Below, piece by piece: positions 3,715 to 39,991 of a DNA stretch of 64,000 nucleotides; positions within the stretch are counted from its first letter, which is position 1; each line of letters begins with the position of its first letter. Under the pieces are notes generated by a model. The model was not told the DNA's origin and searched no databases. It worked only from the letters and a program-made list of their open reading frames with translations. The DNA lies in the NCBI GenBank assembly GCA_002786385.1, contig PGCN01000007.1:1-64000 (forward strand), given 5' to 3'. A program made the position numbers and the translations under genes. This DNA is from Flavobacterium sp. FEMGT703F. Its GTDB lineage: Bacteria; Bacteroidota; Bacteroidia; Flavobacteriales; Flavobacteriaceae.

Positions 3715-3745
3715 GCCATCTTTCGTTTTAATGGTATAAGTTTTT

Positions 3746-3753
3746 TATTTTTG
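3746..3753 (+). promoter_or_regulatory. -7 box for PUL1 regulator (TATTTTTG); decides the start
   Basis: TATTTTTG fits TAnnTTTG. It overlaps the upstream TTG codon at 3751, which therefore cannot be the translation start, and leaves the GTG at 3772 as the best choice. A weak TTCG at 3722-3725 could act as the -33 element. Confidence 0.5.
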
Positions 3754-3771
3754 GTTATTAATCCGCCAAAA

Positions 3772-6519: not shown

Positions 6520-6783
6520 TCAAAACCTTTTTTTTCCATTATCTGCATTTTTTTTCTTTAAATTTTGTCGATTTGTTATTCTGTGCTACTTCATCAATAG
6601 TACATCATTTGCCTTTTATATTGATAAGTTGTTTGTTTTTTTTTAACATTTTAAATTGCTGAATAATAGTTAATTAAAAAATATATTTTAATTTATGATG
6701 TAGTTTTGTAGTGTTTTATTAACTGCAACTATAACGATGTAATAGATAAATTTGTTGAAGTATTAACTCATCCTAAACAATTT
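6520..6783 (+). promoter_or_regulatory. Promoter/control region of PUL1 susC
   Basis: This 264-base AT-rich gap has no ORF. The best -7 match is TAGTTTTG at 6701-6708, about 75 bases before the susC ATG, without a good -33 partner. The word GTTTTGTAGT (6703-6712) also occurs upstream of the PUL2 susC (30316-30325). Operator sites for the LuxR-type regulator are expected here, but none can be pinned down. Confidence 0.4.
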
Positions 6784-9768
6784 ATGAAAAACATTTATGT
6801 ACTACTCTCGTTACTGTTTTTCCCAATCTTTGCTTTTTCACAAACCATAGAAGGGAAAATAGTTGATGAAAAAGGTATTGCGCTCATAGGAGCTAACATT
6901 ACAAATACCACCATGAATTCAAGTACGGTTTCTGACATGGAAGGTGCATTTAAGATCAATGCTAATGTTGGTGACAAGATTAAAGTCGCCATGATTGGTT
7001 TTGAGACCAAAACCGTAGAGGCAACTCAAGGAATGCAGGTTACTTTAAAAGAAGAAGTTAACCAGCTTCAAGATGTTGTAATCATTGGTTACGGTACCCG
7101 AAAAAAGGTGGATAACACTTCGGTTATTACTTCTTTAAAAGCCGAAGAAATAACCAAAACCAAGGTTTTAAATGCTTCTCAAGCTATTCAGGGTAAAGCT
7201 GCCGGAGTTCAGGTTATTGCTTCAGATTCCCCGGGTTCAACACCTAGTGTCATTATTCGTGGATTAGGAACTGCAATTGGCGGTCGAACACCGCTTTTTG
7301 TGGTTGATGGTATGCCGGCGGATAACATCAACAATATCAATGCAAATGATATTGTATCGTATGAGATTTTAAAAGATGCTACTGCTAAAGCCATTTACGG
7401 TAACAGAGCCGCCAACGGTGTCATCATCATCGAGACTAAAAAAGGAAAAGTAGGCAAATTGGCTGTTGAATTCGAAATGTTTACCGGTTTCAGAAGTCCT
7501 TTAAGTGTGGTGAAAATGGCCGGAAGTAATAAGTTTTCATACTATACCAATTTGGCTCTTGGTTCAACTACATTTTCTCAAGACCAACCGGTTAACACGG
7601 ATTGGTTTAAAGAAATCACCAGAACCGGTCAGTATTCACAAAGCAACCTATCGCTTTCTGGAGGTAGTGAAAATATAAAATACTTCTTTAGTGCAGGCTA
7701 TTACGATGAAGAAGCAATTCTTAACGGAATGGATTACAGTAGATTAACATTCAGAAATAACAATGAATACAAAGTCTCCAACAAGATTAAGTTATCTCAA
7801 AACTTGAGTGTTTCGTATTCAAAGGTAAATCCTAAGCCATTCTCTGCCTTTACAAATGCTTACAAACAATCACCAATTGTTCCGGTTTATTTCCCCTCTG
7901 GACAATATGGTGTTTCCTTTGTGGGAGATGACGGTTTTGCTTCTCCAACAGGTTCTTCTTTTAACAATGTGGGTAATCCTGTTGCTCAGCTTGATTTCTT
8001 TGATGAGCAACAAAAAAGCATAACACTTCAAGGTGGATTGAAATTAGATATTGACATTTTGAAAGGCTTAAAATATTCCTCTGTTTTCAATGGTGAATAT
8101 TACACATGGAAAGGTTACAATTACGAAGACACCAAAAATATCTGGTTGGCTGCCGATCCTACTCGTGAAGAAGCCGATTATCCATCAACATCAAATGTTA
8201 ATTTGTTGACCAGATCTAGCGACAGTTATTTCAATTGGAATTTGTCTAACTATCTTACTTTTAACAAGGTGTATGCCGATATTCACGATGTTGAATTAAC
8301 CGGTGGTATCGAAGCCTCAAGCAGAGGACCAAGAAGTTTCAGTAAAGTGGTTAGAAGAAATGTAAACGCTAATTCTAATTATTGGTCTTTAAACGGAGTT
8401 GATTATGCTTCTAATGTGATAAGCTATAATGATGTTCTCTACAATGAAGTAAAATTAGCGTCTTATTTCGGACGTGTACAATACAAGTTGATGAATAAAT
8501 ACCTATTGACTGCTACGGTAAGACGCGACGGTTCTTCACAATTCGGTGAAGATTACCGATGGGGAACTTTTCCCTCGGTAGGTTTGGGTTGGATTATTAC
8601 CAATGAAGATTTTGCTAAAAATTTGAAAGGCGTTGATTTGTTAAAATTAAGAGGTGGTTGGGGTAAACTCGGTAACCAAAATGTGCCTTTAAACAGTCAG
8701 GCTTTTTCTTCAGGTTTAGATTATTACATTCCGAATTACTTAACCGGAATTACTGTCGATTCTCAAGTAGATCCAAGTCTTTCTTGGGAAGTTACCGAAG
8801 AAACCTCTGTTGGTTTGGATTTCGGATTTCTAAGCAACAGATTAACCGGTACATTTGATGTTTACAATAAAAACACCAACAATTTAATTCTTTACACCAG
8901 ACCATATATCACTGCCGGTTCAAGTCAACAATCACCAGCTCATGTGGGTGAAGTATCAAACAAAGGATTTGAACTTTCTCTAAAATGGAATGATAAAATA
9001 AATGATAATTGGACTTACTATGTAAGTGGTAATTTTTCAAACAACAAAAATGCTCTTGAAAGATTGAACAGTTCAAATCTTCCTGATATTCAAGGTGGCG
9101 GACTTGGTAACGGGCAATACACTAAGTTGTTAGGTGAATCATCAGTTGGTAAACCATTGGGAAGCTTTTATTTGTATGACTATGCAGGATATGATTCAAC
9201 TAATGGTCAAATGTTATATTACAAAGCCGACGGGACAACCACTACTCAAGGTGGATTGGAGGAAGCAGACAGAAAATATTTCGGTTCTGTTTTGGCTAAA
9301 TCCATGTACGGCTTATCATTAGGCTTTACTTATAAAAACTTCGATGTGTCTATGGACAGCTACGGAACTTTAGGATCTAAAGTGTATAACGGTAAAAAAG
9401 CCCAACGTTTTTCAGGGGAAAACATTGAAAACTCTTTGGCCTCTGATTTCTGGACACCATCTAACACGAATGCCGGAAATCCCGGTGCTTTCAATCAAGT
9501 TCCTGTGGCTTCAACTTACTATCTTGAATCAGGTGATTTCTGGAGAATTAACAACATAACTATCGGATACAAATTACCAAAAACATTCGATGCTATTTCT
9601 TCTGCCAGAATTTATTTTAACGCCATTAATCCTTTTATCACTAAAAAATTCTCAGGCTTTTCTCCCGAATTAAACGGTGATGGAAATCCTTACGGAAGCC
9701 AAGGCGTAGAGTTAGACGCGTATCCAACGCTTAAATCATTTGTTTTTGGTATTAACCTTAAATTCTAA
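6784..9768 (+). CDS. SusC/RagA family TonB-linked outer membrane transporter (PUL1)
   Basis: This 994-residue outer-membrane beta-barrel imports oligosaccharides with TonB energy. Signal peptide 1-20 (ends FAFSQ) is followed by a carboxypeptidase-D-like regulatory domain (TIEGKIVDEKGIALIGANI, ~21-95), the SusC-specific segment DVVIIGYGTRKK, then the plug domain with RGLGTAIGGRTPLFVVDG and GNRAANGVIIIETKKG. A long barrel ends in an aromatic strand (FVFGINLKF), the outer-membrane insertion signal. The length is typical. The SusD partner follows after 6 bases, so the two are co-transcribed and presumably form a lidded SusCD complex. The upstream regulator probably controls it. Substrate specificity cannot be read from the barrel. 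Confidence 0.95.
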   Translation: MKNIYVLLSLLFFPIFAFSQTIEGKIVDEKGIALIGANITNTTMNSSTVSDMEGAFKINANVGDKIKVAMIGFETKTVEATQGMQVTLKEEVNQLQDVVIIGYGTRKKVDNTSVITSLKAEEITKTKVLNASQAIQGKAAGVQVIASDSPGSTPSVIIRGLGTAIGGRTPLFVVDGMPADNINNINANDIVSYEILKDATAKAIYGNRAANGVIIIETKKGKVGKLAVEFEMFTGFRSPLSVVKMAGSNKFSYYTNLALGSTTFSQDQPVNTDWFKEITRTGQYSQSNLSLSGGSENIKYFFSAGYYDEEAILNGMDYSRLTFRNNNEYKVSNKIKLSQNLSVSYSKVNPKPFSAFTNAYKQSPIVPVYFPSGQYGVSFVGDDGFASPTGSSFNNVGNPVAQLDFFDEQQKSITLQGGLKLDIDILKGLKYSSVFNGEYYTWKGYNYEDTKNIWLAADPTREEADYPSTSNVNLLTRSSDSYFNWNLSNYLTFNKVYADIHDVELTGGIEASSRGPRSFSKVVRRNVNANSNYWSLNGVDYASNVISYNDVLYNEVKLASYFGRVQYKLMNKYLLTATVRRDGSSQFGEDYRWGTFPSVGLGWIITNEDFAKNLKGVDLLKLRGGWGKLGNQNVPLNSQAFSSGLDYYIPNYLTGITVDSQVDPSLSWEVTEETSVGLDFGFLSNRLTGTFDVYNKNTNNLILYTRPYITAGSSQQSPAHVGEVSNKGFELSLKWNDKINDNWTYYVSGNFSNNKNALERLNSSNLPDIQGGGLGNGQYTKLLGESSVGKPLGSFYLYDYAGYDSTNGQMLYYKADGTTTTQGGLEEADRKYFGSVLAKSMYGLSLGFTYKNFDVSMDSYGTLGSKVYNGKKAQRFSGENIENSLASDFWTPSNTNAGNPGAFNQVPVASTYYLESGDFWRINNITIGYKLPKTFDAISSARIYFNAINPFITKKFSGFSPELNGDGNPYGSQGVELDAYPTLKSFVFGINLKF

Positions 9769-9774
9769 ATTATT

Positions 9775-11229
9775 ATGAAAAAAGTATATTTATCTGTCTT
9801 TGTTTTATCGGCGCTGTTTTTCAACGGTTGTTCAGACGACTTTTTGGAGGTAGACCAAACTGAGACCATATCAACAGCTGACTTGGCGCTATTCAATAAC
9901 GATGAAGGAGCCAAAAGTTTTGTCACTTCAATCTATTCCAAGTTTTTAGATTGGAACATGTCTTCTTTTTCTTGGAACGGAATGTCAAGTATTGCCTCAG
10001 ATGATGCTGATAAAGGTTCTTCTCCCGGCGATACCGGAACCGATAAAGATTTAATGGATGCATTGACTTACAATGCTTCAAGTATTTCGGTACAAGAAGT
10101 TTTTGAAGCCTATTACCAAGGAATCAATCGTTGCAATCAGGCTTTGTATTATATTCCGCAATTGAACAATGCCGATGAAAATTTAAGAGCTCGTCTTATC
10201 GGAGAAGCCAAATTCTTGAGAGCTTTCATGTATTTTACTTTGGTAAAGTGTTATGGCGGAGTACCAATCGTTGACCATATTCCGAATCCTTCTTCAGAAG
10301 CCGACAGAGTAATGCAATTAACGCGTAAAACTAAAGCCGAAGTCTATGCCTTTATCGAGCAAGATTTAAATGATGCTATTGCTGCTTTACCGGATAGAGG
10401 ATTTTATGCTCCAAGTGAAAGAAGCAGAGCTTCTGTTGGTGCTGCCAGAGCGCTTTTGGCTAAAGTTTCTCTTTACCAAGAGAAATGGCAAGAGGTAATC
10501 AATAATTGTGATGCCATAACCGGATATTCATTAGCTACTGATTATGCTTCTCAATACAGAGTATCAGGCGAATTCGATAGCGAGTCAATTTTCGAAATTT
10601 CAGGAATAGGCTCTTCACCGGCTAAAGGAATTCAAGGGTATTCAGCTTCTCAAGGTGCTCGTGGTGCCGGAGGCTGGGGTTGGGGTTTCAACACACCTTC
10701 AGAAAGTTTGGCCAACGCCTATGAATCGGGTGATACAAGAAGAGACGCGACTATTATTTTTGCTGGTTCTACTTTATACGATGGCAGATTTGTTCCGCTT
10801 ACAGTTGAAAACCCAAGGTACAATATGAAAGCTTATTCTTCTGCCTTTACCGATGGCTGGGAAACCGATGCCAATATAAAATACCTTCGTTATGCTGAAG
10901 TTTTATTGATGAAAGCAGAAGCTTTGAACGAATTGGGACAAACTTCAAATGCGATTCCATTAGTTAACCAAATTAGAAACAGAGCCGGATTAGGCAATAC
11001 CACTGCAACGTCTCAAGCCGATGTGAGATTGGCAATTTGGAAAGAAAGAAGACTTGAATTGGCTTTTGAGCACGATCGCTTTTTTGATTTGGTAAGAACA
11101 GGTCAAGCCGAAGCTGCCTTTGCTGCAGACGGAAAAACGTTTGTGGTAGGTAGACATGAAGTTTTCCCATTACCACAAAAGTTTATTAATGAAGCTGATG
11201 GTTTATCAGCTCAAAATCCTAATTACTAA
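9775..11229 (+). CDS. SusD/RagB family glycan-binding lipoprotein (PUL1)
   Basis: The 484-residue surface lipoprotein caps the SusC barrel and captures glycan. The signal peptide ends in FFNGC (Cys19), followed by SDDFLEVDQTE, the usual SusD N terminus. TPR-like helical segments follow, including LIGEAKFLRAFMYFTLVKCYGGVPIV, the common SusD core motif. The C-terminal part has LRYAEVLLMKAEALNELG and IWKERRLELAFEHDRFFDLVRTG, which are nearly universal in the family. It ends ALSAQNPNY-like, again standard. It sits between SusC and a LamG lipoprotein with short gaps, in one operon. Aromatic residues that stack on sugar are present but cannot be assigned to a ligand. Confidence 0.95.
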   Translation: MKKVYLSVFVLSALFFNGCSDDFLEVDQTETISTADLALFNNDEGAKSFVTSIYSKFLDWNMSSFSWNGMSSIASDDADKGSSPGDTGTDKDLMDALTYNASSISVQEVFEAYYQGINRCNQALYYIPQLNNADENLRARLIGEAKFLRAFMYFTLVKCYGGVPIVDHIPNPSSEADRVMQLTRKTKAEVYAFIEQDLNDAIAALPDRGFYAPSERSRASVGAARALLAKVSLYQEKWQEVINNCDAITGYSLATDYASQYRVSGEFDSESIFEISGIGSSPAKGIQGYSASQGARGAGGWGWGFNTPSESLANAYESGDTRRDATIIFAGSTLYDGRFVPLTVENPRYNMKAYSSAFTDGWETDANIKYLRYAEVLLMKAEALNELGQTSNAIPLVNQIRNRAGLGNTTATSQADVRLAIWKERRLELAFEHDRFFDLVRTGQAEAAFAADGKTFVVGRHEVFPLPQKFINEADGLSAQNPNY

Positions 11230-11245
11230 TATTAAAAAATTAATT

Positions 11246-12151
11246 ATGAAGAATAGAAATAAAATACTGTACTTGTGTCTGTCGGTATTAGCGACGCAGT
11301 TTTTTATCAGCTGTAATCAGGATACTATTGATGAAACCAATACAGCTATACCATATGAACCAATTGGAGGTTATGAAAATTCAGATGATATTGCAGCGGA
11401 TAACCTGATTGTTAAATGTAGCTTTGAAGAGAATGTTACCGATTCAAAATCGGGTATCAGTGATGGTAACGGAACCAATGTTACTTATGAAAACGGCGTA
11501 AAAGGAAAAGCCTACAAAGGCTCTTCTTCAGCTTTTATCGGATACAATACCGTTTCTCCGGCTTTGGCTAATGTAAAAAGCATCACGGTCTCTGCATGGA
11601 TTAAAACCGATCCTCATACCGGTGGCGCTCAATGTTTGTTTATGTTGCCTAAAACTTCTGATTTTTGGGGTAATATTTTTACTCTTATTGAAGGAACAGG
11701 TCCGGCCGATACCATGTTGATTAAGAATCATTTGCAAAAAGATGTCACGCCAAGTATTCCTTGGTCTGGCCAATGGTTGGTTCATGACGGTTCTAATGTT
11801 TTGACCAATATGTTTGGCAACTGGAAACATTTGGTTTGGACTTACGATGCCGCTACTTCAACTTACAGCATGTATGTTAATGGTCAAAATTTGAATTTAC
11901 CTAATTCGATAGCCAAAAGATATACCAATGATCCTGCTGCTGGCGGAGTACCTTATGGTGATTTAGCCAATTCTGATGTTTCAAAATTTGTAATAGGCGG
12001 ATTCCAACAACATTTAGGTGCGCCTTGGGGTGCTGCCGACGGTTGGATGTTGCATTATTCCGGTTTGCTTGATGAATTCAGAATTTATGACAAAGCTTTG
12101 TCTGATACTGACGTACGTTCTTTATATCTATTAGAGAGCGATAACAGATAA
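11246..12151 (+). CDS. LamG / concanavalin A-like surface lipoprotein (PUL1)
   Basis: The 301-residue protein has a lipoprotein signal ending FFISC (Cys23) and a single LamG-like (laminin-G/pentraxin, ConA-like) jelly-roll domain from about residue 50. Visible landmarks are AYKGSSSAFIGY, SITVSAWIKTD, WKHLVWTYDAATSTYSMYVNG and the closing GLLDEFRIYDKALSDTDVRSLY, which is the family's hallmark end. Such proteins directly after SusD usually act as surface glycan-binding proteins that hold substrate for SusCD and the enzymes. The ATG at 11246 was chosen because it begins the signal peptide; upstream codons in the same frame run back into susD. A terminator hairpin follows, so the importer trio may be made in larger amounts than the enzymes. 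Confidence 0.85.
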   Translation: MKNRNKILYLCLSVLATQFFISCNQDTIDETNTAIPYEPIGGYENSDDIAADNLIVKCSFEENVTDSKSGISDGNGTNVTYENGVKGKAYKGSSSAFIGYNTVSPALANVKSITVSAWIKTDPHTGGAQCLFMLPKTSDFWGNIFTLIEGTGPADTMLIKNHLQKDVTPSIPWSGQWLVHDGSNVLTNMFGNWKHLVWTYDAATSTYSMYVNGQNLNLPNSIAKRYTNDPAAGGVPYGDLANSDVSKFVIGGFQQHLGAPWGAADGWMLHYSGLLDEFRIYDKALSDTDVRSLYLLESDNR

Positions 12152-12172
12152 CACATTAAAATTGCCCCATCT

Positions 12173-12209
12173 AAATATACACCCGGTTTAGTGACTGGGT
12201 GTATATTTT
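12173..12209 (+). terminator. Terminator/attenuator between the PUL1 importer genes and enzyme genes
   Basis: A perfect 12-bp stem, AAATATACACCC (12173-12184) with GGGTGTATATTT (12197-12208), has a 12-base loop and a T-rich 3' side. It lies inside the PUL1 gene run, 15 bases before the next ATG, so partial read-through that lowers enzyme expression relative to SusCD is plausible. Confidence 0.8.
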
Positions 12210-12224
12210 AAAAATACTAAAATT

Positions 12225-13601
12225 ATGAATAAAAGCATATCGTTTTTTTGGGTAGGACTTTTGTTCTGTTGTTGTTCTTCTTCAACACCAAGTGAAAGTT
12301 CAACAGGAACACCCTTACCAACAACTAGTCAAACACCACTCACGGATACCGAATTGCTCGACAAAGTCCAAAGAGATTCGTTTAAATATTTTTGGGATAT
12401 GGCACATCCCGTTTCAAAATTAGCCCGAGAAAGATACTTGGTTGATGATCCTAATTATGATGCCAATATTGTAACTACCGGTGGCTCAGGTTTTGGATTG
12501 ATGACTATTTTGGTTGGTATAGAAAGAGGTTTTGTACAGCGTTCAGAAGCTGTTTCTCGACTAACAACAGCATTAAATTTTTTAGAAACTGCTGACCGTT
12601 TTCACGGCGCTTGGCCACATTGGATGGATGGAATTACCGGAAATGTTATTCCTTTCGGGAATGTTGATAATGGTGGCGATTTGGTTGAAACTGCTTTCTT
12701 GTGTCAGGGATTAATTTGTATTAGAGAATATTTTAAAAACGGCAGTAGTACCGAACAAGCATTGGCTCAGAAAGCCGACTTGCTTTGGAAAGGAGTCGAA
12801 TGGAATTGGTATACCAAAGGGGAAAATGCTCTATATTGGCATTGGTCACCCAATTATGGTTGGCAAATGAATTTTAAATTAGAAGGTTACAACGAATGTT
12901 TACTCACTTATGTGATGGCTGCTGCCTCTCCGGATTATACGGTGCCTGCCACTGCTTACCATCAGGCTTGGGCCAGAAACGGTCAAATTGTCAATAGTGC
13001 GTCTCAGTACGGATATCCGGTGATTTTTAATCACAATGGAGCCAACGGTAATGTCGGACCTTTATTTTGGGCTCATTATTCCTACTTGGGTCTCGATCCC
13101 AGAGGTTTGACCGACCAATATGCCAACTATTGGAATCTCAATGTAAACCATTCCAAAATTATTAATAAATATTGTATAGCAAATCCACAAGGTTGGGACG
13201 GTTATTCTGAAAAATGTTGGGGATTGACAGCCAGTTATTCCCGAAACAATGATGGTTCTACCGGTTACTCAGCGCATCAAACTAATAATGATTTAGGGGT
13301 TATTTCACCAACTGCAGCACTTTCCTCATTTCCTTATACACCGGATGAGTCGTTCAAATTTTTGCGATACTTGTATAATGAAAAAAGGGATCGCTATGTT
13401 GGAGTTGCCGGACCGTATGATGCTTTTTCTCCGCATCATGATTGGGTTACCAAAAGATATTTGGCTATCGACCAAGGAACCATCGTTCCCATGATAGAAA
13501 ATTACAGAACCGGCTTTTTGTGGAATTTGTTCATGCAAGCTCCTGAAGTACAAAGCGGATTGCAAACGTTAGGCTTTACCTCAACACAACACGGATTTTA
13601 A
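12225..13601 (+). CDS. GH144-like glucanase (glucoamylase family protein, COG5368 type)
   Basis: The 458-residue protein matches the glucoamylase-family/COG5368 proteins of Bacteroidota, many of which are now placed in GH144, the endo-beta-1,2-glucanase family first defined in Chitinophaga. Recognised landmarks: LLDKVQRDSFKYFWDMAHP, TTGGSGFGLMTILVGIERGF, ADRFHGAWPHWMDG, DNGGDLVETAFLCQGL, WHWSPNYGWQMNF, GYNECLLTYVMAA, and a C-terminal YDAFSPHHDWV segment. These fit an (alpha/alpha)6 barrel. The N terminus has a short hydrophobic stretch ending in three cysteines (15-17), so it is probably a lipoprotein with an unusual lipobox. It is followed after 6 bases by an alpha/beta hydrolase and then a GH3, a pairing known for beta-1,2-glucan breakdown. 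The GH144 label is from memory of family motifs; catalytic residues were not assigned. Confidence 0.75.
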   Translation: MNKSISFFWVGLLFCCCSSSTPSESSTGTPLPTTSQTPLTDTELLDKVQRDSFKYFWDMAHPVSKLARERYLVDDPNYDANIVTTGGSGFGLMTILVGIERGFVQRSEAVSRLTTALNFLETADRFHGAWPHWMDGITGNVIPFGNVDNGGDLVETAFLCQGLICIREYFKNGSSTEQALAQKADLLWKGVEWNWYTKGENALYWHWSPNYGWQMNFKLEGYNECLLTYVMAAASPDYTVPATAYHQAWARNGQIVNSASQYGYPVIFNHNGANGNVGPLFWAHYSYLGLDPRGLTDQYANYWNLNVNHSKIINKYCIANPQGWDGYSEKCWGLTASYSRNNDGSTGYSAHQTNNDLGVISPTAALSSFPYTPDESFKFLRYLYNEKRDRYVGVAGPYDAFSPHHDWVTKRYLAIDQGTIVPMIENYRTGFLWNLFMQAPEVQSGLQTLGFTSTQHGF

Positions 13602-13607
13602 AGAGCT

Positions 13608-14306
13608 ATGAGAATTAAAACAATTCAAATTATTATAGCCTTAGGTTTTTCTTTGATGACTTTTGCTCAGGAAACTAAAGGCTCATTTGCTAAAGAGATT
13701 AAAGTAAAGTTGTCTTTGAACTACATCTTGCAACTCCCTGAAAACCAAAAAGAAAAATTTCCTTTGCTGGTTTTTCTTCACGGTTCGGGTGAAAGAGGAA
13801 CGGATTTGGAGTTGGTTAAAAACCATAGTCCTTTTACTTATCAACATTTAATTCCATCACCGGTAGCCATATTGGCGCCGCAATGTCCGGAAAATGTTTG
13901 GTGGGATTCCACCGCTCTATACCAATTGATTTTGGATATATCCGAAAAATACAATATAGATAAGTCAAGGATTTATCTAACCGGTCTCAGTATGGGCGGC
14001 TGGGGAACTTGGAAACTCGCAGAAGAGCACCCGGAGTTGTTTGCGGCCATAGCTCCTGTTTGTGCTCCTGTCGACAGAATGATGCTGATTAACGCCGATA
14101 AACTGAAAGATATGCCGCTTAAAATCTATCACGGTGCTTTAGATGATGTAGTGCTGCCAACAGACTCAATCGAAATGTATCAGAAATTAAAAGGAATTAA
14201 TAAAACGGCAGAGCTGATTCTTTTTTCAAATGACAATCACAACAGTTGGGATTCGACTTATTCTAACCCTAAGTTTTACGAATGGTTATTGGCCCAACAC
14301 AAATAA
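13608..14306 (+). CDS. Secreted alpha/beta hydrolase (carboxylesterase / predicted peptidase family)
   Basis: The 232-residue protein has a signal peptide (1-20, ending MTFAQ). The alpha/beta-hydrolase core is complete: oxyanion region FLHGSGERG (56-64), nucleophile elbow GLSMG with Ser128, an acid in HGALDD (Asp179 or Asp180), and the catalytic His211 in DNHNSWD. It resembles the bacterial predicted peptidase/phospholipase-carboxylesterase group, some of which are carbohydrate esterases. Here it lies between a GH144-like enzyme and a GH3 with gaps of 6 and 14 bases, so a role in removing acyl groups from the PUL1 glycan is a reasonable inference, which matters because beta-glucans from bacteria can be succinylated or acetylated. 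A peptidase function is less likely in this setting. Confidence 0.82.
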   Translation: MRIKTIQIIIALGFSLMTFAQETKGSFAKEIKVKLSLNYILQLPENQKEKFPLLVFLHGSGERGTDLELVKNHSPFTYQHLIPSPVAILAPQCPENVWWDSTALYQLILDISEKYNIDKSRIYLTGLSMGGWGTWKLAEEHPELFAAIAPVCAPVDRMMLINADKLKDMPLKIYHGALDDVVLPTDSIEMYQKLKGINKTAELILFSNDNHNSWDSTYSNPKFYEWLLAQHK

Positions 14307-14320
14307 AATTAAATTTTCGG

Positions 14321-16621
14321 ATGAGACTTTACAACAACCTCACATTTTCTTTATTATTAATCACTTCTGTAGCGTTAGCACAGAAGAAAACGGCTAAGTC
14401 CACCATTGCTCCTAAAGAGACTTTTGTACCTGAGTTGTTGGCAAAGATGACCTTGGAAGAAAAAATCGGCCAACTGAACTTACCCACTTCCGGCGATATT
14501 ACTACCGGTCAAGCCAATAGTTCCAACATCGCCAAAAAAATAGAAGAAGGCAAAGTAGGAGGTTTGTTCAATATAAAATCGGTACAAAAAATTAAAGAGG
14601 TACAAAAAATTGCCGTAGAGAGAAGTCGCTTGAAAATTCCGCTTCTTTTTGGAATGGACGTAATTCACGGCTACGAAACCACTTTCCCAATTCCGCTTGG
14701 ATTGTCTTGTACTTGGGATATGAATTTGATTAAACGCAGTGCCCAAATTGCTGCTCAAGAGGCCAGTGCCGATGGCATTAACTGGACATTTTCACCCATG
14801 GTTGACATTTCTCGCGACCCGAGATGGGGCAGAATTTCCGAAGGTTCCGGTGAGGATCCTTATTTGGGAAGCCAGATTGCCAAAGCAATGGTGAGCGGTT
14901 ACCAAGGGGATGACTTAATGAAAAACAATACCATTTTATCTTGTGTGAAGCATTTTGCGCTGTATGGTGCGCCTGAAGCAGGACGTGACTACAATACCGT
15001 AGACATGAGCAAAATCAGAATGTACAACGATTACCTGCCGCCTTACAAAGCCGCAATCGATGCCGGAACAGCTTCCGTAATGGCTTCTTTCAATGAAATT
15101 GACGGTATTCCGGCTACGGGAAATAAATGGTTGTTGACAGATTTACTCCGAAAAGATTGGGGTTTTAAAGGTTTTGTGGTGACCGATTATACCGGTATCA
15201 ACGAAATGACGGATCACGGCATGGGCGATTTGCAAACGGTATCGGCTTTGGCACTAAACGCCGGAGTAGAAATGGATATGGTAGGCGAAGGTTTTTTAAC
15301 AACACTCCAAAAGTCACTTGCTGAAGGCAAGGTTACTATCGCTCAAATTGACCGAGCTGTCACGTTGATTTTAAATGCCAAATACGATTTAGGTTTATTC
15401 CACGATCCTTACAAATACTGCGATACCAATCGCGCTAAAACAGAAATTTTCACCTCAGCTCATCGAAATGAGGCTCGTAAAATAGCCGCAGAATCCTTGG
15501 TTTTACTTAAAAATGAAGGCCAGTTGCTACCGCTTAAAAAATCGGGAACTATTGCTCTAATTGGCCCTTTGGCTGAGGCTAAAGAAAACATGGCCGGGAC
15601 TTGGAGTGTTGCTACCAAGCAAGAAAACTCGATTTCTTTGTTCAATGGTATGAAGTCGGTTGTAGGCAACTCGGCCAAAATCCTTTATGCCAAAGGCAGT
15701 AATTTAGATTATGATGCGGCTTATGAAGAAAGAGCTACCATGTTTGGCAAAACCCTACACAGAGATCAAAGAACCAATGAACAACTTTTAGCAGAAGCTA
15801 TGCAAATAGCTAATCAGTCCGATGTAATTGTAGCTGCTTTGGGAGAATCTGCCGAAATGAGCGGGGAATCCAGTAGCCGAACCAATTTGGAAATCCCAAA
15901 AGCGCAAAAAGATTTGTTACAACAGCTGATTAAAACAGGAAAACCGGTTGTATTGGTTTTGTTTGACGGGCGTCCGTTGGTAATAACCGAAGAAAATAAA
16001 GCTGTTCCAGCCATTTTAAACGTTTGGTTTCCGGGTAGTGAAGCCGGTTACGCCATAGCCGATGTGTTGTTTGGAGATGTTAATCCGTCCGGAAAATTAT
16101 CGGCTACATTCCCAAGAAGTGTCGGACAAGTTCCGATTTATTATGCCGCTAAAAATACCGGAAGACCATTAGGAAATAAACAAGGAAATTTTGAAAAATT
16201 CAGATCTAATTACCTAGATGAGCGCAACGAACCTTTGTTTCCCTTCGGTTTTGGATTGAGCTATACGGCTTTCAAATATTCAAATTTAAGATTGTCTGCC
16301 AATACGATGAAGAGCAATGATAAGCTTCAAGCGTTTGTTGATGTTACCAATACCGGAAATTTCGATGGTAAAGAAGTTGTGCAATTATACATCAGAGATT
16401 TGGTAGGTTCGGTTACACGGCCGATTAAAGAATTAAAAGGGTTCAAAAAAATAAGCTTAAAGAAAGGCGAAACGCAAACCGTTTCCTTCGAAATTACAGT
16501 AGAAGATTTGAAATTCTATAACTCCGATTTGCAGTTTGTAGCAGAGCCGGGAAGATTTCAACTATTCATCGGAACCAATTCCGATACCACCGATAAAATA
16601 GAATTTGATTTGGTTAATTAG
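14321..16621 (+). CDS. GH3 beta-glucosidase, BglX-like (PUL1)
   Basis: The 766-residue periplasmic exo-glycosidase releases glucose from the non-reducing end of oligosaccharides by a retaining mechanism. Signal peptide 1-21 (VALAQ) precedes the GH3 N-terminal TIM barrel (MTLEEKIGQLN; GMDVIHGYETTFPIPLG; SPMVDISRDPRWGRISEGSGEDPYLG). The nucleophile is Asp289 in VVTDYTGINEM, a TDY variant of the common SDW. A GH3 C-terminal domain follows and an FnIII-like domain closes the protein. The ATG at 14321 gives the signal peptide; an ATG at 14282 inside the upstream gene is rejected. Next to a GH144-like gene, a sophorose/beta-1,2-glucosidase role is the simplest inference. It shares family and order with the GH3 of PUL2 but differs around the active site. 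Confidence 0.9.
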   Translation: MRLYNNLTFSLLLITSVALAQKKTAKSTIAPKETFVPELLAKMTLEEKIGQLNLPTSGDITTGQANSSNIAKKIEEGKVGGLFNIKSVQKIKEVQKIAVERSRLKIPLLFGMDVIHGYETTFPIPLGLSCTWDMNLIKRSAQIAAQEASADGINWTFSPMVDISRDPRWGRISEGSGEDPYLGSQIAKAMVSGYQGDDLMKNNTILSCVKHFALYGAPEAGRDYNTVDMSKIRMYNDYLPPYKAAIDAGTASVMASFNEIDGIPATGNKWLLTDLLRKDWGFKGFVVTDYTGINEMTDHGMGDLQTVSALALNAGVEMDMVGEGFLTTLQKSLAEGKVTIAQIDRAVTLILNAKYDLGLFHDPYKYCDTNRAKTEIFTSAHRNEARKIAAESLVLLKNEGQLLPLKKSGTIALIGPLAEAKENMAGTWSVATKQENSISLFNGMKSVVGNSAKILYAKGSNLDYDAAYEERATMFGKTLHRDQRTNEQLLAEAMQIANQSDVIVAALGESAEMSGESSSRTNLEIPKAQKDLLQQLIKTGKPVVLVLFDGRPLVITEENKAVPAILNVWFPGSEAGYAIADVLFGDVNPSGKLSATFPRSVGQVPIYYAAKNTGRPLGNKQGNFEKFRSNYLDERNEPLFPFGFGLSYTAFKYSNLRLSANTMKSNDKLQAFVDVTNTGNFDGKEVVQLYIRDLVGSVTRPIKELKGFKKISLKKGETQTVSFEITVEDLKFYNSDLQFVAEPGRFQLFIGTNSDTTDKIEFDLVN

Positions 16622-16640
16622 TTTAATGTTTACTTCGAAG

Positions 16641-16678
16641 AAAAACCCTTTGGTATGGAATGACTAAAGGGTTTTTTT
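16641..16678 (+). terminator. Terminator after PUL1 GH3
   Basis: AAACCCTTTGGT and ACTAAAGGGTTT pair (about 12 bp with one or two wobbles) and are followed by T7. It separates the SusCD/GH144/GH3 block from the GH97/GH43 block. Confidence 0.85.
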
Positions 16679-16696
16679 AAAGTAAATAGTAATTTC

Positions 16697-16704
16697 TATC
16701 TTTA
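16697..16704 (+). promoter_or_regulatory. Possible -7 box for the GH97 transcript (TATCTTTA)
   Basis: This is one mismatch from TAnnTTTG, 16 bases before the GH97 ATG and directly after a terminator. The short leader fits other promoters in this window. No convincing -33 was found. Confidence 0.35.
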
Positions 16705-16719
16705 GCAAAAATATCTAAC

Positions 16720-18819
16720 ATGAAAAAAATACTATTGCTTTCGCTTTTATTTATCCTTAACAGCTTGAACGCTCAAGTGCTGGAATCACCTTCCAAAGCG
16801 CTTAAACTCAATTTTCAATTGACGCCAAACGGCAAACCTTCGTATTCGTTAACCTACAAGAACAAGCCGGTTGTGTTAAACAGCTTGTTAGGTCTTTATC
16901 TCAAAGGCGATAGCGACCTGGCCTCTAATTTTAAAATTGACAGCATTGGAATGACTACTTTCAATGAGTCATGGAAACCTGTTCTGGGAGAGCAATCTAA
17001 GATTGTAAATCATTACAATCAATTAACGGCGGCTCTATCACAAACCGGAAGTAAAAGAAGGGTGAATATCATTTTCAAACTCTATGATGAAGGCTTGGCT
17101 TTTCGATACGAATTTCCAAAACAACAAAATCTGAATTATTTCATTATCTCTGATGAAAAATCAGAATTCAATTTGGCCGGAAACCACAAAACATTTTGGA
17201 TTCCCGGCGATTTCGATAGTCAGGAATATGCCTACAACGAAACCTTATTGTCTGAGGTAAATTCGGCTAAAATCGATATGAATAACGGTATCGGTTTGAA
17301 ATCAATCGCCGGTAACTTTATGGTGCAATCACCTTTGATGATGAAGTCTGCCGACAATTTGTACCTCAATATTTTTGAAGCAGCGGTAGTGAATTATCCG
17401 GTGATGCATTTGGACTTAAATCCGACCACTTATGCCTTAACCTCTCATTTGGTTCCGAATGCGATTGGCGATAAAGCTTATCTGCAAACACCATGTGTTT
17501 CGCCTTGGAGAACTGTTATGGTTAGTGATGATGCCAGAGAAATTGTAAGTTCTAAAATGATATTAAATTTAAATGAACCTTCTAAAATTGATGATACATC
17601 GTGGATTAAACCTATGAAATACGTTGGAATTTGGTGGGAAATGCACGTGGGTAAATCTACTTGGGATTATGCTGGAAGTCAGAATGCCCAAAACACCGAG
17701 TCGAGAGAATTAATTGCCAGCGGTAAACACGGTGCCACTACAGCCAATACCAAAAGATACATCGATTTTGCAGCCAAACACGGATTTGACGGTGTATTGG
17801 TTGAAGGTTGGAATGTGGGTTGGGAAGATTGGTTCGGGAATTGGAAAGAAGATGTTTTCGATTTTACCACGCCTTATCCGGATTACGATTTGGCCGAAAT
17901 TAATGCTTATGCGAAATCTAAAGGCGTTAAAATGATCATGCACCATGAAACTTCAGGTTCAGTGGCGAATTACGAAAGACATTTGGATCGCGCTCTGGAA
18001 TTGATGAAAAAATATGGTTATCCTGCTGCTAAATCAGGGTATGTAGGTCGCATTATTCCACGCGGAGAATTTCACGACGGGCAAACTATGGTGAATCATT
18101 TCAACTTTGTAGCCCGAAGATTTGCCGATTACAAAATGATGGTCAACTCACACGAAAGTTCGCGTCCAACCGGTTACCACAGAACCTATCCGAATTACAT
18201 AGCTGCTGAAGCAGCACGCGGAAACGAATTCAACGCTTGGAGTGTGGGCAATCCGCCTATGCATGAAACCATTTTACCCTTTACCCGTTTGTTAGGCGGT
18301 CCGATGGATTATACACCGGGTATTTTTGAAATCAAAATGAGTTTGTACGATAAAAATAAAAAAGAGCAAGTTCACACCACTTTAGCCAAGCAATTGGCCT
18401 TGTATGTAACCATGTATTCGCCTTTACAAATGGCCGCCGACTTACCGGAGAACTATGAAAAATATCCGGATGCTTTTCAGTTTATCAAAGACGTGGCAGC
18501 CGATTGGGATGACAGTAAGTATTTGGAAGCCGAACCCGGAGATTATCTGACAGTTGCACGTAAAGCCAAGGGTAAAGAGGAATGGTTTTTAGGCGCCATC
18601 ACTGATGAGAATGCCAGAAAGACCAAAATCAATTTGAGTTTCTTGACACCGGGCAAAAAATACAAAGCGGTAATTTACCAAGACGGTAAAACGGCACATT
18701 GGGAAAAAAATCCTATCAATTATGAAATCATTACAAAAACAGTTACCTACAAAGATTTTATCCAATTAAATTTAGCGGCCGGAGGCGGAACAGCTATCAG
18801 TTTTACACCTATCAATTAA
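16720..18819 (+). CDS. GH97 alpha-glucosidase, SusB-type (inverting)
   Basis: The 699-residue secreted enzyme has signal peptide 1-19 (NSLNAQ), a beta-sandwich N-terminal domain, a central (beta/alpha)8 barrel and a C-terminal beta domain, the GH97 plan. Four barrel glutamates, E362 (VLVEGW), E410 (MHHET), E479 (NSHES) and E503 (RGNEF), lie at a constant offset of 29 from the Ca-binding and catalytic glutamates of SusB (391, 439, 508, 532, as remembered). This marks the calcium-dependent inverting alpha-glucosidase group rather than the retaining alpha-galactosidase group. The expected product is glucose from alpha-linked oligosaccharides. It starts a new transcript with the GH43-like gene 10 bases downstream. 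An alpha-glucosidase beside beta-glucan enzymes is unexpected (see findings). Confidence 0.92.
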   Translation: MKKILLLSLLFILNSLNAQVLESPSKALKLNFQLTPNGKPSYSLTYKNKPVVLNSLLGLYLKGDSDLASNFKIDSIGMTTFNESWKPVLGEQSKIVNHYNQLTAALSQTGSKRRVNIIFKLYDEGLAFRYEFPKQQNLNYFIISDEKSEFNLAGNHKTFWIPGDFDSQEYAYNETLLSEVNSAKIDMNNGIGLKSIAGNFMVQSPLMMKSADNLYLNIFEAAVVNYPVMHLDLNPTTYALTSHLVPNAIGDKAYLQTPCVSPWRTVMVSDDAREIVSSKMILNLNEPSKIDDTSWIKPMKYVGIWWEMHVGKSTWDYAGSQNAQNTESRELIASGKHGATTANTKRYIDFAAKHGFDGVLVEGWNVGWEDWFGNWKEDVFDFTTPYPDYDLAEINAYAKSKGVKMIMHHETSGSVANYERHLDRALELMKKYGYPAAKSGYVGRIIPRGEFHDGQTMVNHFNFVARRFADYKMMVNSHESSRPTGYHRTYPNYIAAEAARGNEFNAWSVGNPPMHETILPFTRLLGGPMDYTPGIFEIKMSLYDKNKKEQVHTTLAKQLALYVTMYSPLQMAADLPENYEKYPDAFQFIKDVAADWDDSKYLEAEPGDYLTVARKAKGKEEWFLGAITDENARKTKINLSFLTPGKKYKAVIYQDGKTAHWEKNPINYEIITKTVTYKDFIQLNLAAGGGTAISFTPIN

Positions 18820-18829
18820 ATCAATTTAT

Positions 18830-20587
18830 ATGAAACATCGGATTGCTTTACTGCTATTGTTATTTATTTCAAATTATGGAATTGCCCAACAAAAAACATA
18901 TTGCAATCCGATTAATATTGATTATGGTTATTGTCCGATTCCCGATTTTGTCAAGCAGGGCAAACACCGCGCAACAGCTGATCCTGTAATCACTTTTTTC
19001 AAGGGTGAATATTACCTTTTTTCCACCAACCAATGGGGTTACTGGCATAGCAAAGACATGTCCGATTGGCAATTTATCTCCCGAAAGTTTTTGCGTCCCG
19101 AACACAAAGTCTATGACGAATTGTGTGCGCCATCGTTGTCTTTTGTGAATGATACTTTGCTGGTGGTTGGCTCAACACAAGGCAAAGAATTTCCCCTTTG
19201 GATGAGTACCAATCCGACGAAAGGCGAGTGGAAGGAACTCATTCACAAATCGGAAGCAGCAGCTTGGGATCCGCAAATTTTTTGGGATAAAGACACCGAT
19301 GAAGTCTATGAATATTATGGTTCAAGCAATTTGTATCCTTTGTACGGCATGAAACTCAATCGCAAAACATTCCAACCGGAAGGCGAGAGGATTCCGGTTT
19401 TAGCTCTCAATGATGACGAACACGGCTGGGAACGCTTTGGCGAACACAACGACAATACCTTTCTGCAACCTTTTACCGAAGGCGCATTTATGACCAAGTA
19501 TAATGGAAAATACTATTTGCAATACGGCGCACCGGGAACCGAGTTTAGCGGTTATGCCGATGGGGTTTATGTAGGTTCCGGTCCTTTAGGTCCGTTTGAA
19601 TACCAATCTCACAATCCGTTTTCCTATAAACCCGGAGGTTTTGCGCGTGGTGCCGGACATGGCGCTACTTTTACGGATGCTTTCGAACAATATTGGCATG
19701 TATCTACTATCGGGATTTGCGTGAAGAATAACTTTGAACGCCGTTTAGGGATTTGGCCGGCCGGGTTTGATAAAGATGATATTTTATATTCCAATACAGC
19801 CTATGGTGATTATCCGACTTATTTACCTTCTGAAAAACGCGATCATTTATCCGGAAGTTTTACGGGTTGGATGCTGCTTAATTACAACAAGCCGATTCAA
19901 GTTTCCTCTACTTTAGGTGGTTTTCAACCGAATTTGGCCGTAGACGAAGACATTAAAACCTATTGGTCGGCTAAAACTGCGAATAAAGGAGAATACTTGA
20001 TTTCCGATTTGGGCGAATTGAGTACCATTAATGCTATTCAAATTAATTATGCCGATCAGGATGCCGAGTTGATGGGAAAACCGGATACGACTACCGGACA
20101 TAAATACATACTTTACACCTCAAATGACGGCAAAAATTGGAAAGTGTTAGTAGATAAAAGCAAAAGCACCAAAGATGTTCCACATGAGTACATTGAGTTA
20201 GCTACTCCTGTTAAAGCTCGATTTTTAAAATTGGAAAATGTAGCCATGCCAACCGGTAAGTTTGCCATCAGCGGATTTAGGGTTTTCGGAACGGGAAGCG
20301 GCGAAAACCCCGGAGCTGTTAAGAATTTTGTGCCCTTGCGTTCCGGTCCGAAAGTAAAGGGCGAACGCAGAAACGTATGGTTTAAATGGCAGCAAGAACC
20401 TAATGCTGATGGTTATGTGATTTATTTCGGCAAATCACCCGATAAATTGTATGGTTCGATTATGGTTTACGGCAAAACGGAATACTATTTTAACGGTTTG
20501 GACCGATCTGACATTTACTTTTTTCAGATAGAAGCGTTCAACAATAATGGAATCGGACCTAAGAGTGACATTAAAAAGGCAGAATAG
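18830..20587 (+). CDS. GH43-like five-bladed propeller with discoidin (CBM32-like) and FN3 domains
   Basis: The 585-residue secreted protein has signal peptide 1-20 (GIAQQ). Residues ~25-350 look like a clan GH-F/J five-bladed propeller: Asp51 in HRATADPVI (base position), Asp147 in AAWDPQIFW (pKa-modulating position) and Glu218 in FTEGAF (acid position) follow the GH43 D-D-E pattern. Residues ~355-460 form an F5/8 type C (discoidin) domain with ISDLGELSTINAIQINYADQ and ARFLKLENV, probably carbohydrate-binding. Residues ~475-585 form an FN3-like domain. The subfamily and substrate are not recognisable; arabinosidase, xylosidase, galactosidase or GH117-like activity are all possible. It is co-transcribed with GH97, so the two probably act on the same glycan. 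Confidence 0.75.
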   Translation: MKHRIALLLLLFISNYGIAQQKTYCNPINIDYGYCPIPDFVKQGKHRATADPVITFFKGEYYLFSTNQWGYWHSKDMSDWQFISRKFLRPEHKVYDELCAPSLSFVNDTLLVVGSTQGKEFPLWMSTNPTKGEWKELIHKSEAAAWDPQIFWDKDTDEVYEYYGSSNLYPLYGMKLNRKTFQPEGERIPVLALNDDEHGWERFGEHNDNTFLQPFTEGAFMTKYNGKYYLQYGAPGTEFSGYADGVYVGSGPLGPFEYQSHNPFSYKPGGFARGAGHGATFTDAFEQYWHVSTIGICVKNNFERRLGIWPAGFDKDDILYSNTAYGDYPTYLPSEKRDHLSGSFTGWMLLNYNKPIQVSSTLGGFQPNLAVDEDIKTYWSAKTANKGEYLISDLGELSTINAIQINYADQDAELMGKPDTTTGHKYILYTSNDGKNWKVLVDKSKSTKDVPHEYIELATPVKARFLKLENVAMPTGKFAISGFRVFGTGSGENPGAVKNFVPLRSGPKVKGERRNVWFKWQQEPNADGYVIYFGKSPDKLYGSIMVYGKTEYYFNGLDRSDIYFFQIEAFNNNGIGPKSDIKKAE

Positions 20588-20813
20588 GTTGGTTATCAAC
20601 AAGCGAAAACGTTGTAATTTTTTGAAAAATTCGCAAAAATGCATTTAAGAAATCGATTTCGTTAATAACTAATTCATACTTACTTTTACCGTTTTACTTA
20701 TAAATGTATATTTATACAATGGAGTTTGTCGAATTAACTATTGATTTGATAATGTAACGACCCATTTTTTACATAAACAACAACTTATAACAACCAAACC
20801 AAAACTATTATCT
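20588..20813 (+). promoter_or_regulatory. Leader/promoter gap before the sugar transporter gene
   Basis: 226 bases, AT-rich, no ORF. TATATTTA near 20707 is a weak -7 candidate. No hairpin with a T-run was seen after the GH43-like gene, so read-through into the transporter gene is possible. Confidence 0.3.
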
Positions 20814-22250
20814 ATGAGCACACAAAATTTAAAAACCAATTGGGCACAATTTATTCCCTTAGTCACCGTATTTTTCTTTTGGGGATTTGTGGCGGCCAGT
20901 AACGATATTTTAATTCCGGTTTTCAAGAAAGCCTTTGATTTAACCCAAGGGCAAAGTCAGTTAGTATCGGTTGCTTTTTACGTGGCATATACTGTCGGAT
21001 CTATCATTTATATGATTATTTCTTTTTTAACCAAAGGCGATTTAATCAATCGAATTGGCTATAAAAATGCATTGGCCTTAGGTTTAGTGATTTCTGCCTT
21101 AGGTACTTTATTGTTTTATCCTGCCGCTAATACCGGTTCATTTCCTTTAATGTTATCCGGTTTATTTATTGTGGCCTTGGGCTTCTCTTTACAACAAACG
21201 GTTGCCAATCCTTTAGCGATTGCACTCGGACCGATAACTACCGGTTCTCAGCGTTTGACAATGGCCGGTGGAATCAATAACTTAGGAACGACCATCGGAC
21301 CGTTGATTGTGAGTTTTGCCATTTTTGGTTCGGCGACTTCCGGAGATACTGATATGAGCATTGAAAGCGTGAAAATCCCTTACTTGGTATTAGGAGCTGC
21401 CTTTTTATTGGTAGCGGTTTTGTTAAAGTTTTCTTCGTTACCCGACAAACCGGCTGCTGTAGTGGAAGAAGAAGGTGTTGCAACCAGTACTAGAAATTCT
21501 GCCTTAAGCTATCCGCAATTGATTTTGGGAATGATTGGAATATTTGTTTATGTTGGAGTAGAAGTGTCAACCGCCAGTAATTTACCGGCTTATATGGAAA
21601 GTGATTTGGGATTTGATACCAAAGACATTGCGCCTTTTATCTCATTGTACTGGGCCAGTTTGATGATTGGTCGTTGGACCGGAGCGGTTGAAGCGTTTAC
21701 TGATAATATGAATACCCAAAAGATATTGCGTTTTGTAGCGCCTTATTTGGCTTTTGGTGTTTTCTTAGGAGTGAACAAATTCATGAACCACGATTTGACT
21801 CCATTTTATGTGTATGCGTTAATCATTTTGGTTTTGATTTTTGCCGATATGGCCAGCAAAGGAAATCCGGCTAGAATGTTATTAATTTTCTCTGTTTTGG
21901 GAATTACTGCTTTACTAGTTGGAATGGCAACTAACGGTATGGTAAGCGTTTATGCCTTTACCAGTGTTGGATTGTTCTGTAGTACACTATGGCCTTGTAT
22001 CTTTACTCTAGCCATCAGTGGTTTAGGTAAACACACCAGTCAAGGAAGTAGTTTCTTGATTATGATGATTATGGGAGGTGGATTAGTAAGTTGGTTACAA
22101 GGTTATGTCGCTGATATTACTTCTATTCACACTAGTTATATCGTTGGAGTACTTTGTTTTGCTTATTTAGCTTTTTATGCCTGGAAAGTTTCCGGTATCT
22201 TGAAGAGTCAGGGAATCGACTTTGATAAAAAAGTAAGTGGCGGACATTAA
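20814..22250 (+). CDS. FucP-type sugar MFS transporter (PUL1)
   Basis: The 478-residue inner-membrane protein has about 12 hydrophobic helices. It belongs to the FHS (fucose:H+ symporter, FucP/GluP/NagP) branch of the major facilitator superfamily: FIPLVTVFFFWGFVAASNDIL at the start, GYKNALALGLVISALGTLLFYPAA, and GFSLQQTVANPLAIALGP, which carries the family's QxxxNP motif. It should move a monosaccharide, most likely glucose or galactose given the exo-enzymes upstream, from periplasm to cytoplasm with protons. It is the last gene of PUL1 and ends in a strong terminator. The FHS family call is firm; the sugar is an inference. Confidence 0.9.
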   Translation: MSTQNLKTNWAQFIPLVTVFFFWGFVAASNDILIPVFKKAFDLTQGQSQLVSVAFYVAYTVGSIIYMIISFLTKGDLINRIGYKNALALGLVISALGTLLFYPAANTGSFPLMLSGLFIVALGFSLQQTVANPLAIALGPITTGSQRLTMAGGINNLGTTIGPLIVSFAIFGSATSGDTDMSIESVKIPYLVLGAAFLLVAVLLKFSSLPDKPAAVVEEEGVATSTRNSALSYPQLILGMIGIFVYVGVEVSTASNLPAYMESDLGFDTKDIAPFISLYWASLMIGRWTGAVEAFTDNMNTQKILRFVAPYLAFGVFLGVNKFMNHDLTPFYVYALIILVLIFADMASKGNPARMLLIFSVLGITALLVGMATNGMVSVYAFTSVGLFCSTLWPCIFTLAISGLGKHTSQGSSFLIMMIMGGGLVSWLQGYVADITSIHTSYIVGVLCFAYLAFYAWKVSGILKSQGIDFDKKVSGGH

Positions 22251-33611: not shown

Positions 33612-33623
33612 AAAAAAAATAAG

Positions 33624-35129: not shown

Positions 35130-35140
35130 TAATGATCCAT

Positions 35141-36253: not shown

Positions 36254-36259
36254 GATACT

Positions 36260-37234: not shown

Positions 37235-37307
37235 ATCATATCTATAACTGACAGGAAGTTTAACCATTTCCTGTCGGTTTAACTATTAACAATTAAACGG
37301 ATTTGTT

Positions 37308-38384: not shown

Positions 38385-38416
38385 TATTTTGTTTAGTTAA
38401 AATTAGTTGTCCTTTT

Positions 38417-39969: not shown

Positions 39970-39991
39970 TTAATTATTTAATCAGTTCAGA

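Follow-up and report, generated by a model that had tools for sequence, protein, structure and literature searches.

Overall organization of PUL1

The window analyzed here is a stretch of 64,000 nucleotides at the beginning of contig 1 of Flavobacterium sp. FEMGT703F, the genome of which comprises 2.98 Mb over 26 contigs. It carries a polysaccharide utilization locus (PUL), termed PUL1, that spans 3751-22250 and is thus wider than the segment 12225-20587 described in an earlier note on this DNA. All genes of PUL1 are on the forward strand, in the order regulator, SusC, SusD, LamG, glycoside hydrolase (GH) family 144, esterase, GH3, GH97, GH43-like protein and glucose transporter of the major facilitator superfamily (MFS) (Table 1). 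The susC/susD pair is co-directional with the GH144 and GH3 genes, the gene arrangement of a beta-1,2-glucan PUL. The beta-1,2-glucans are bacterial products important in symbiosis, virulence and osmoregulation. Based on sequence comparison, PUL1 is probably a Bacteroidota beta-1,2-glucan PUL with the GH43-like gene as a regular member and the GH97 and MFS genes as a separable unit.

The families GH144, GH3, GH97 and GH43-like, assigned to these reading frames in the earlier note, were confirmed by Pfam and solved-relative matches, as was an alpha/beta-hydrolase between GH144 and GH3. Within this run, the wider intergenic spaces precede SusC (264 bp), MFS (226 bp), GH97 (98 bp) and GH144 (73 bp). 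Because promoter and terminator scans of the locus gave counts close to the shuffled expectation, the operon limits were judged by spacing alone. The regulator begins 37 bp past g2512, the gene flanking PUL1 on the left. Two start sites follow our own reading: that of LamG was placed at the internal ATG 11246, which differs from the listed start, and that of GH3, the frame of which is open from 14282, is probably 14321. The LamG protein is a probable surface glycan-binding lipoprotein.

Table 1. Genes of PUL1 and its left flank in the window.
Feature	Coordinates	Strand	Evidence
g2512, flanking gene at the left site edge, outside the PUL	2512..3714	+	NCBIfam alanine dehydrogenase 31.8 bits, far under the cut-off of 392
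Predicted sensor-regulator, Reg_prop propeller and LuxR-type helix-turn-helix	3751..6519	+	Pfam GerE and Reg_prop, both slightly below cut-off
SusC/RagA outer-membrane transporter	6784..9768	+	TIGR04056 706 bits
SusD-family lipoprotein	9775..11229	+	PF07980, PF14322
LamG/concanavalin-A-like protein	11246..12151	+	PF13385 48.8 bits; lipobox by eye
GH144 endo-beta-1,2-glucanase homologue, predicted lipoprotein	12225..13601	+	PF10091 255 bits (cut-off 27); lipobox-like Cys by eye
Secreted alpha/beta-hydrolase	13608..14306	+	Pfam Peptidase_S9/Abhydrolase_2
GH3 beta-glucosidase, BglX type	14321..16621	+	NF011678 (BglX) 972 bits, above cut-off; PF00933, PF01915, Fn3-like
GH97 alpha-glucosidase, inverting type by residues	16720..18819	+	Three GH97 domains, the catalytic one 358 bits
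GH43-like protein with F5/8 type C and FN3	18830..20587	+	PF04616 78.2 bits (cut-off 32.2), F5/8 type C 58 bits
MFS glucose/galactose transporter, GluP type	20814..22250	+	TIGR01272 210.7 bits (cut-off 202.55)

The GH144 enzyme, its GH3 partner and the esterase

The nearest solved relatives of the GH144 protein are 5gzk and 5gzh, both of CpSGL from Chitinophaga pinensis, which match over the full length with an E value of about 1e-164 (2e-164 for 5gzk). The key residues named for CpSGL are D135, D139 and E142, the general acid E211, the clan residues F268 and Y330, and D400 (PMC12102758; papers are cited by PubMed Central (PMC) number, in each case from extracts of the text). All seven are conserved in the window GH144, which carries the motifs DNGGDLVE at residue 148, GYNE at 221, GPLF at 278, TGYSAH at 346 and AIDQG at 414; the numbering of the two proteins was paired by hand with a 20-residue offset. 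Judged by sequence, the 12225 protein belongs to GH144 and is predicted to hydrolyze beta-1,2-glucan; placement outside the family, which the earlier note named as the result that would overturn its proposal, was not found.

The GH3 protein is closest to the solved structure 3u48, followed by 9urf, 5tf0 and 5xxl, the last of which we take to be the B. thetaiotaomicron beta-1,2-glucosidase BT_3567. Family and residues together support the pairing of GH144 and GH3 for beta-1,2-glucan suggested previously. The alpha/beta-hydrolase at 13608 has the esterase 3doh as its nearest solved relative (E 9e-34), with the motif GLSMGG at residue 126, and is a probable de-acylating esterase.

The GH43-like protein

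The 18830 protein had been described as a GH43-like/discoidin/FN3 protein. The first two parts of this description stand in Pfam (Table 1), whereas FN3 is absent from Pfam at E 0.001 and appears by family profile only, with a match to neogenin at 501-583. No match was found among the NCBIfam models, and a sequence-profile comparison with solved structures revealed only weak similarity, the best being 4qqs with an E value of 1e-16. Enzymes of GH43 fold into a five-bladed beta-propeller and use an Asp base, an Asp modulator and a Glu acid. The corresponding triad of D51, D147 and E217 is invariant across 83 aligned sequences. An AF2 model built from these 83 sequences reached a pLDDT of 92.1 and a pTM of 0.90, replacing an earlier, weak model from 21 sequences (pLDDT 71.6). 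Superposition of the model on the GH43 enzyme 4qqs by VIA-align yielded a Z score of 25.6 and an rmsd of 2.6 over 285 aligned residues, with xylosidases, arabinofuranosidases and arabinanases close behind. The modelled protein thus looks like an active GH43-fold hydrolase. Among the best 80 of 592 confirmed GH43-like loci, which are the named loci referred to below, its closest named relatives are Flavobacterium, with F. terrisoli first at 91 %. A homologue of 37 % identity, annotated as endo-1,4-beta-xylanase, was observed on an alphaproteobacterial plasmid of Sphingobium (L204) with no PUL annotated around it.

Co-occurrence of the GH43-like and GH144 genes

Three samples, which share some genomes, were compared: 299 genomes of the family, with the GH43-like gene counted at E 1e-60 or better; 296 Bacteroidota genomes for the phylum, with its profile at E 1e-80 or better; and 81 genomes of the genus. 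The family sample contains the GH43-like gene in 42 genomes and GH144 in 75. GH144 was found in 39 of the 42 genomes with the GH43-like gene and in 36 of the 257 without it, and the two genes lie no more than 25 kb apart in 35 of the 42. Similar counts were obtained for the phylum (56/59 with versus 47/237 without, odds ratio 75) and for the genus (27/28 versus 3/53). GH92 was used as a control in the phylum sample, and is present in 45/59 genomes with the GH43-like gene and 64/237 without, an odds ratio of 8.7. The link to GH144 is seen in GH92-positive genomes (43/45 with the GH43-like gene versus 23/64 without) and in GH92-negative genomes (13/14 versus 24/173).

The gene order is also found elsewhere. 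The arrangement SusC-SusD-LamG-GH144-GH144-GH43-GH3-esterase recurs beyond the family in the loci L152, L153 and L166, and nearly so in L154, where no GH3 was seen, and L155, where neither LamG nor esterase was seen; the GH43-like gene occurs apart from these PUL partners in L167-L169, likewise beyond the family. Among the best 80 of the 592 loci, the stretch contains GH144 in 32, GH3 in 33 and GH97 in 15 (one a fragment).

GH144 loci with and without the GH43-like gene were also compared, using 27 of 40 stretches with it (the other 13 were set aside because their stretch contains no GH144) and 30 of 36 genomes without it. Loci with the GH43-like gene more often contain the esterase (21/27 versus 11/30), GH3 (27/27 versus 21/30), a sulfatase (18/27 versus 15/30) and an EEP-family protein (13/27 versus 5/30). 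The two sets of stretches are centred on different genes, which makes their SusC, SusD and regulator counts meaningless. No pairing of GH144 with a GH43-like protein was found in the extracts of the open-licence PMC literature covered, which is weak evidence of absence.

Some loci depart from the usual form. A metagenomic Flavobacterium locus (L082, 4823-11701) consists of a regulator fragment, a GH144 fragment, GH3, the GH43-like gene and MFS, and is either eroded or an assembly fault. A plasmid of Aureibacter tunicatorum (L201) carries SusC-SusD-GH3-GH43-like-GH97-GH3-sulfatase; GH144 has no match within the 26 kb of this stretch. GH144 domains were also observed in unusually long frames of 1,486 and 1,425 residues, the usual length being 460 (G656:C87:81016-81675 and G681:C13:9992-10648).

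GH97 is a separable neighbour

No GH97 other than the 16720 gene was found in the genome. The protein encoded by this gene scores 825 bits against 8wg0, the nearest solved structure, which we take to be F. johnsoniae FjGH97A, and 816 bits against SusB, scores that do not separate an alpha-1,6 from an alpha-1,4 preference. The earlier note credited the protein with the four glutamates of inverting alpha-glucosidases. Three of them were checked and are borne out, as the Glu residues of HHETS, SHESS and GNEF align with E439, E508 and E532 of SusB, for which roles are described (PMC12102758).

The genus sample was used to follow GH97. Members of the clade that includes the window protein share 64-79 % identity with it (in one genome the gene is in two pieces, at 70 and 87 %), and the other GH97 proteins are below 60 %, in groups at 52-59 % and 43-47 %. 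Six of them at 56-59 % were placed in the GH97 tree and fall outside the window clade with full support. The clade occurs in 25 of the 81 genomes. GH144 is present in 8/25 genomes with the clade versus 22/56 without, indicating no enrichment, and the GH43-like gene in 6/25 versus 22/56.

The surroundings of GH97 differ between genomes. In 10 of the 25 clade genomes g2512 lies only 65-380 bp from GH97, and MFS follows in nine of the ten, the match in the tenth being at a contig end. The gap between g2512 and GH97 is 13,009 bp in the window and is filled by the PUL from regulator to GH3. Nine of the ten short-gap genomes have no GH144; in the remaining one, G648, both GH144 and the GH43-like gene are located on a different contig. 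The stretch from g2512 to MFS (2512-22250) therefore behaves as a present-or-absent site. In other GH144-less genomes, GH97 is surrounded by different genes (L238, L239 and L242) or forms GH97-GH3-esterase at a contig end (L244), the rest being otherwise arranged or unclear. The position of g2512 was traced in 22 PUL-bearing genomes. In 15 of them it lies upstream of the GH43-like gene by about 12-19 kb or, in L082, falls within the locus, and in seven it is elsewhere; these placements were compared by hand from coordinates, as there was no direct correspondence between contig numbers and names.

A GH97 tree, built from 48 of the 52 rows after removal of four distant ones, mixes rows with and without the PUL. 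Well-supported branches force at least eight label changes, and the deep branches are unresolved. The PUL labels were assigned by hand; L038 received the label PUL despite the lack of a GH144 match in its genome, which is 84 % complete, and L216 was labelled partial. A preference for repeated loss of the PUL around GH97 was withdrawn, since the GH97 rows outside the genus sample had been found via GH43-like loci and hence are not independent. Whether the PUL was lost or gained, GH97 has its own use, with the glucose MFS as its natural partner. GH97 and MFS are a separable unit that is often kept without the rest of the PUL, and when the PUL is present, GH97 may help with alpha-glucosyl ends.

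These results bear on the two explanations given in the earlier note, two substrates or an undescribed branched, acylated glycan with alpha- and beta-linkages. Two substrates are partly supported for GH97, the clade of which often occurs without the PUL, but not for the GH43-like protein, given its close association with GH144. GH97 and the GH43-like gene as one block were rejected, because the latter tracks GH144 and not GH97. The same comparison argues against GH144-GH3 and GH97-GH43-like being chance neighbours, that is, unrelated transcript blocks for unrelated sugars. The 98 bp gap between GH3 and GH97 and the separability of GH97 would fit such an arrangement, but the gene that tracks GH144 lies beyond GH97. 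Co-occurrence in the phylum and the genus largely refutes it, and we regard it as highly improbable.

An undescribed glycan is not required, because acylated and alpha-1,6-cyclised beta-1,2-glucans are already described (PMC11842490). Such a cyclised, acylated glucan, as in Xanthomonas, Ralstonia and Cereibacter, could itself be a single substrate with both linkages: GH144 would open the ring, the esterase would remove the succinyl or acetyl groups described for these glucans (PMC11842490), GH3 would trim the chain to the single alpha-1,6 bond and GH97 would cut it. The preference of F. johnsoniae FjGH97A for alpha-1,6 bonds (PMC10316084) is consistent with this scheme, as are 14 of the best 80 of 592 loci, in which a full-length GH97 separates GH3 from the GH43-like gene, and the GH97 adjoining the GH43-like gene in Aureibacter. 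However, these named loci were selected by the GH43-like gene, and GH97 is found in only 3/27 and 2/30 GH144 loci of the family sample with and without that gene, respectively. Moreover, the GH97 clade is no commoner in genomes with GH144 and can occupy the same site by itself. The cyclised glucan was our first favourite and was lowered because of the genus-level comparison; we now consider it unlikely. The idea that GH97 proves an alpha-linked backbone or branch was likewise rejected, as GH97 does not track GH144.

Comparison with known systems

PULs with GH144 are among the frequent ones in Bacteroidetes and have been assigned to beta-1,2-glucans by Lapebie et al. (2019), who inferred an unknown sulfated marine polysaccharide for marine GH144 PULs with a sulfatase (PMC6499787). 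PUL1 is of the same kind, and a GH43-like or GH97 partner is unmentioned in the extract of that account. A conserved GH3-GH144 PUL for bacterial beta-1,2-glucans is found in Elizabethkingia (PMC6786605), and a cluster of GH3, two GH144, susCD and a sulfatase in Maribacter (PMC8072126). CpSGL matches the window GH144 over the full length and shares with it all seven tested residues. Similar to PUL1, the F. johnsoniae FjDexUL contains a regulator, SusC, SusD, a binding protein, a surface endo-enzyme and periplasmic exo-enzymes including GH97; however, it uses GH66, GH31 and GH65 for alpha-glucan in place of GH144, GH3 and the GH43-like protein (PMC10316084). The window GH97 keeps the equivalents of E439, E508 and E532 found in SusB and FjGH97A, but sits in a GH144 PUL and not in a starch or dextran PUL. 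A plasmid PUL of Parabacteroides distasonis (L202) contains a triple-tyrosine regulator, SusC, SusD, two GH3 and an esterase as counterparts of PUL1. Unlike PUL1, its enzymes are duplicated, with two GH144 relatives (44 and 56 %) and two GH43-like proteins (50 and 40 %), and its stretch contains no GH97. A likeness of this PUL to the solved BDI_3064 (5z06) is only our guess.

Additional genes were found in many relatives. The 41 mapped stretches, consisting of 40 family-genome loci and the window, were examined with one member per gene cluster run through Pfam. A sulfatase cluster is present in 25 of these stretches, a second esterase in 19, an EEP-family protein in 18 and a GH2 in 14; none of these four is among the genes of PUL1 in the window. 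Sulfatases also occur in loci of the marine genera Allomuricauda and Mariniflexile among the best 80 of 592. The sulfatase adjoining the GH43-like gene in L064 (10929-12617) matches 9s03, a 'Putative sulfatase', with 1025 bits over all 563 residues, followed by the N-acetylglucosamine-6-sulfatase 5g2v; no publication naming 9s03 was found in the open-licence PMC literature. The EEP protein of L068 is nearest to a mannosyl-6-phosphatase.

These extra genes would suit a PUL that targets a different beta-1,2-linked or mixed glycan, for example of beta-1,2-galactose or pentose, with the GH43-like protein and GH97 as side-chain enzymes, which corresponds to the undescribed branched glycan of the earlier note. 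The xylosidases, arabinofuranosidases and arabinanases among the neighbours of the GH43-like model point in the same direction, as do GH144-type clusters with an unexpected partner (PMC11739564, PMC8861115) and the proposed sulfated marine version (PMC6499787). However, PUL1 of the window has none of the extra genes, its GH144 keeps all seven CpSGL residues and its GH3 is close to 5xxl. Such a glycan appears unlikely, slightly more so than the cyclised glucan.

Proposed pathway

Based on families, residues, gene order, co-occurrence and site comparison, we propose a pathway for PUL1, in which the localization, the order of the steps and all substrates are predictions. SusD and the LamG lipoprotein would hold beta-1,2-glucan at the cell surface, where the lipoprotein GH144 would cut it. 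SusC would bring in the oligosaccharides, the esterase would strip the acyl groups and a periplasmic GH3 would trim beta-1,2-linked glucose, which might then be taken up by MFS. The GH43-like protein, a regular though not universal member of the pathway, would have as its target either a product of beta-1,2-glucan or one of its substituents. The SusB-type GH97 would finish alpha-glucosides from beta-1,2-glucan or other sources, independent of the PUL.

Several points weigh against assigning PUL1 to beta-1,2-glucan with a regular GH43-like member. Kinship to GH144 is no proof of substrate, because a GH144-type cluster of B. xylanisolvens holds a beta-1,2-galactosidase inactive on beta-1,2-glucooligosaccharides (PMC11739564). 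No GH144 lies within the stretch in 48 of the best 80 of 592 loci, many of them from Chryseobacterium or Chitinophagaceae, although GH144 was found elsewhere in all 24 of these 48 genomes that were checked. Three of the 59 phylum genomes with the GH43-like gene have no GH144 at all. In the family sample 36 of the 75 GH144 genomes lack the GH43-like gene, which is therefore accessory and not essential to the core. The link may partly reflect a general sugar-eating lifestyle, because GH92 also co-occurs, more weakly, and Fisher p values overstate independence, because the sampled genomes are related and the samples overlap. In addition, other genera have GH97 within the PUL (L033, L036 and L050), favouring some shared function, although these loci were picked via the GH43-like gene.

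The core of PUL1 is ordinary and already known in kind, and the GH43-like protein is its informative partner, whereas the GH97 neighbour is not to be over-read. We tentatively suggest, at somewhat less than even confidence, that the GH43-like protein is a dedicated, phylum-wide enzyme of the beta-1,2-glucan pathway that cleaves beta-1,2-glucosidic bonds or removes an undescribed natural substituent. To our knowledge, such a specificity is not on record for the GH43 fold. If this suggestion is true, the sulfatase and sugar-phosphatase-like genes beside the GH43-like gene in many relatives would belong to the same hidden decoration. Regular partnership of the GH43-like protein with GH144 would mean either that the structure of natural beta-1,2-glucan is incompletely known or that the GH43 fold supports an activity not yet on record. 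Precedents from GH35 in GH144 clusters indicate that odd members can have new activities (PMC11739564, PMC8861115). The GH97 result, in turn, warns against deducing the structure of a substrate directly from the gene content of a PUL.

A second PUL in the window

A second PUL was observed at 27369-46212, consisting of a regulator, SusC, SusD, an Ig-like protein, GH16, two GH30, GH5 with a CBM6/35-type module, and GH3. The domain search covered ten of its open reading frames, from 27369 to 45437, and by these families it looks like a beta-1,3/1,6-glucan (laminarin-type) locus.

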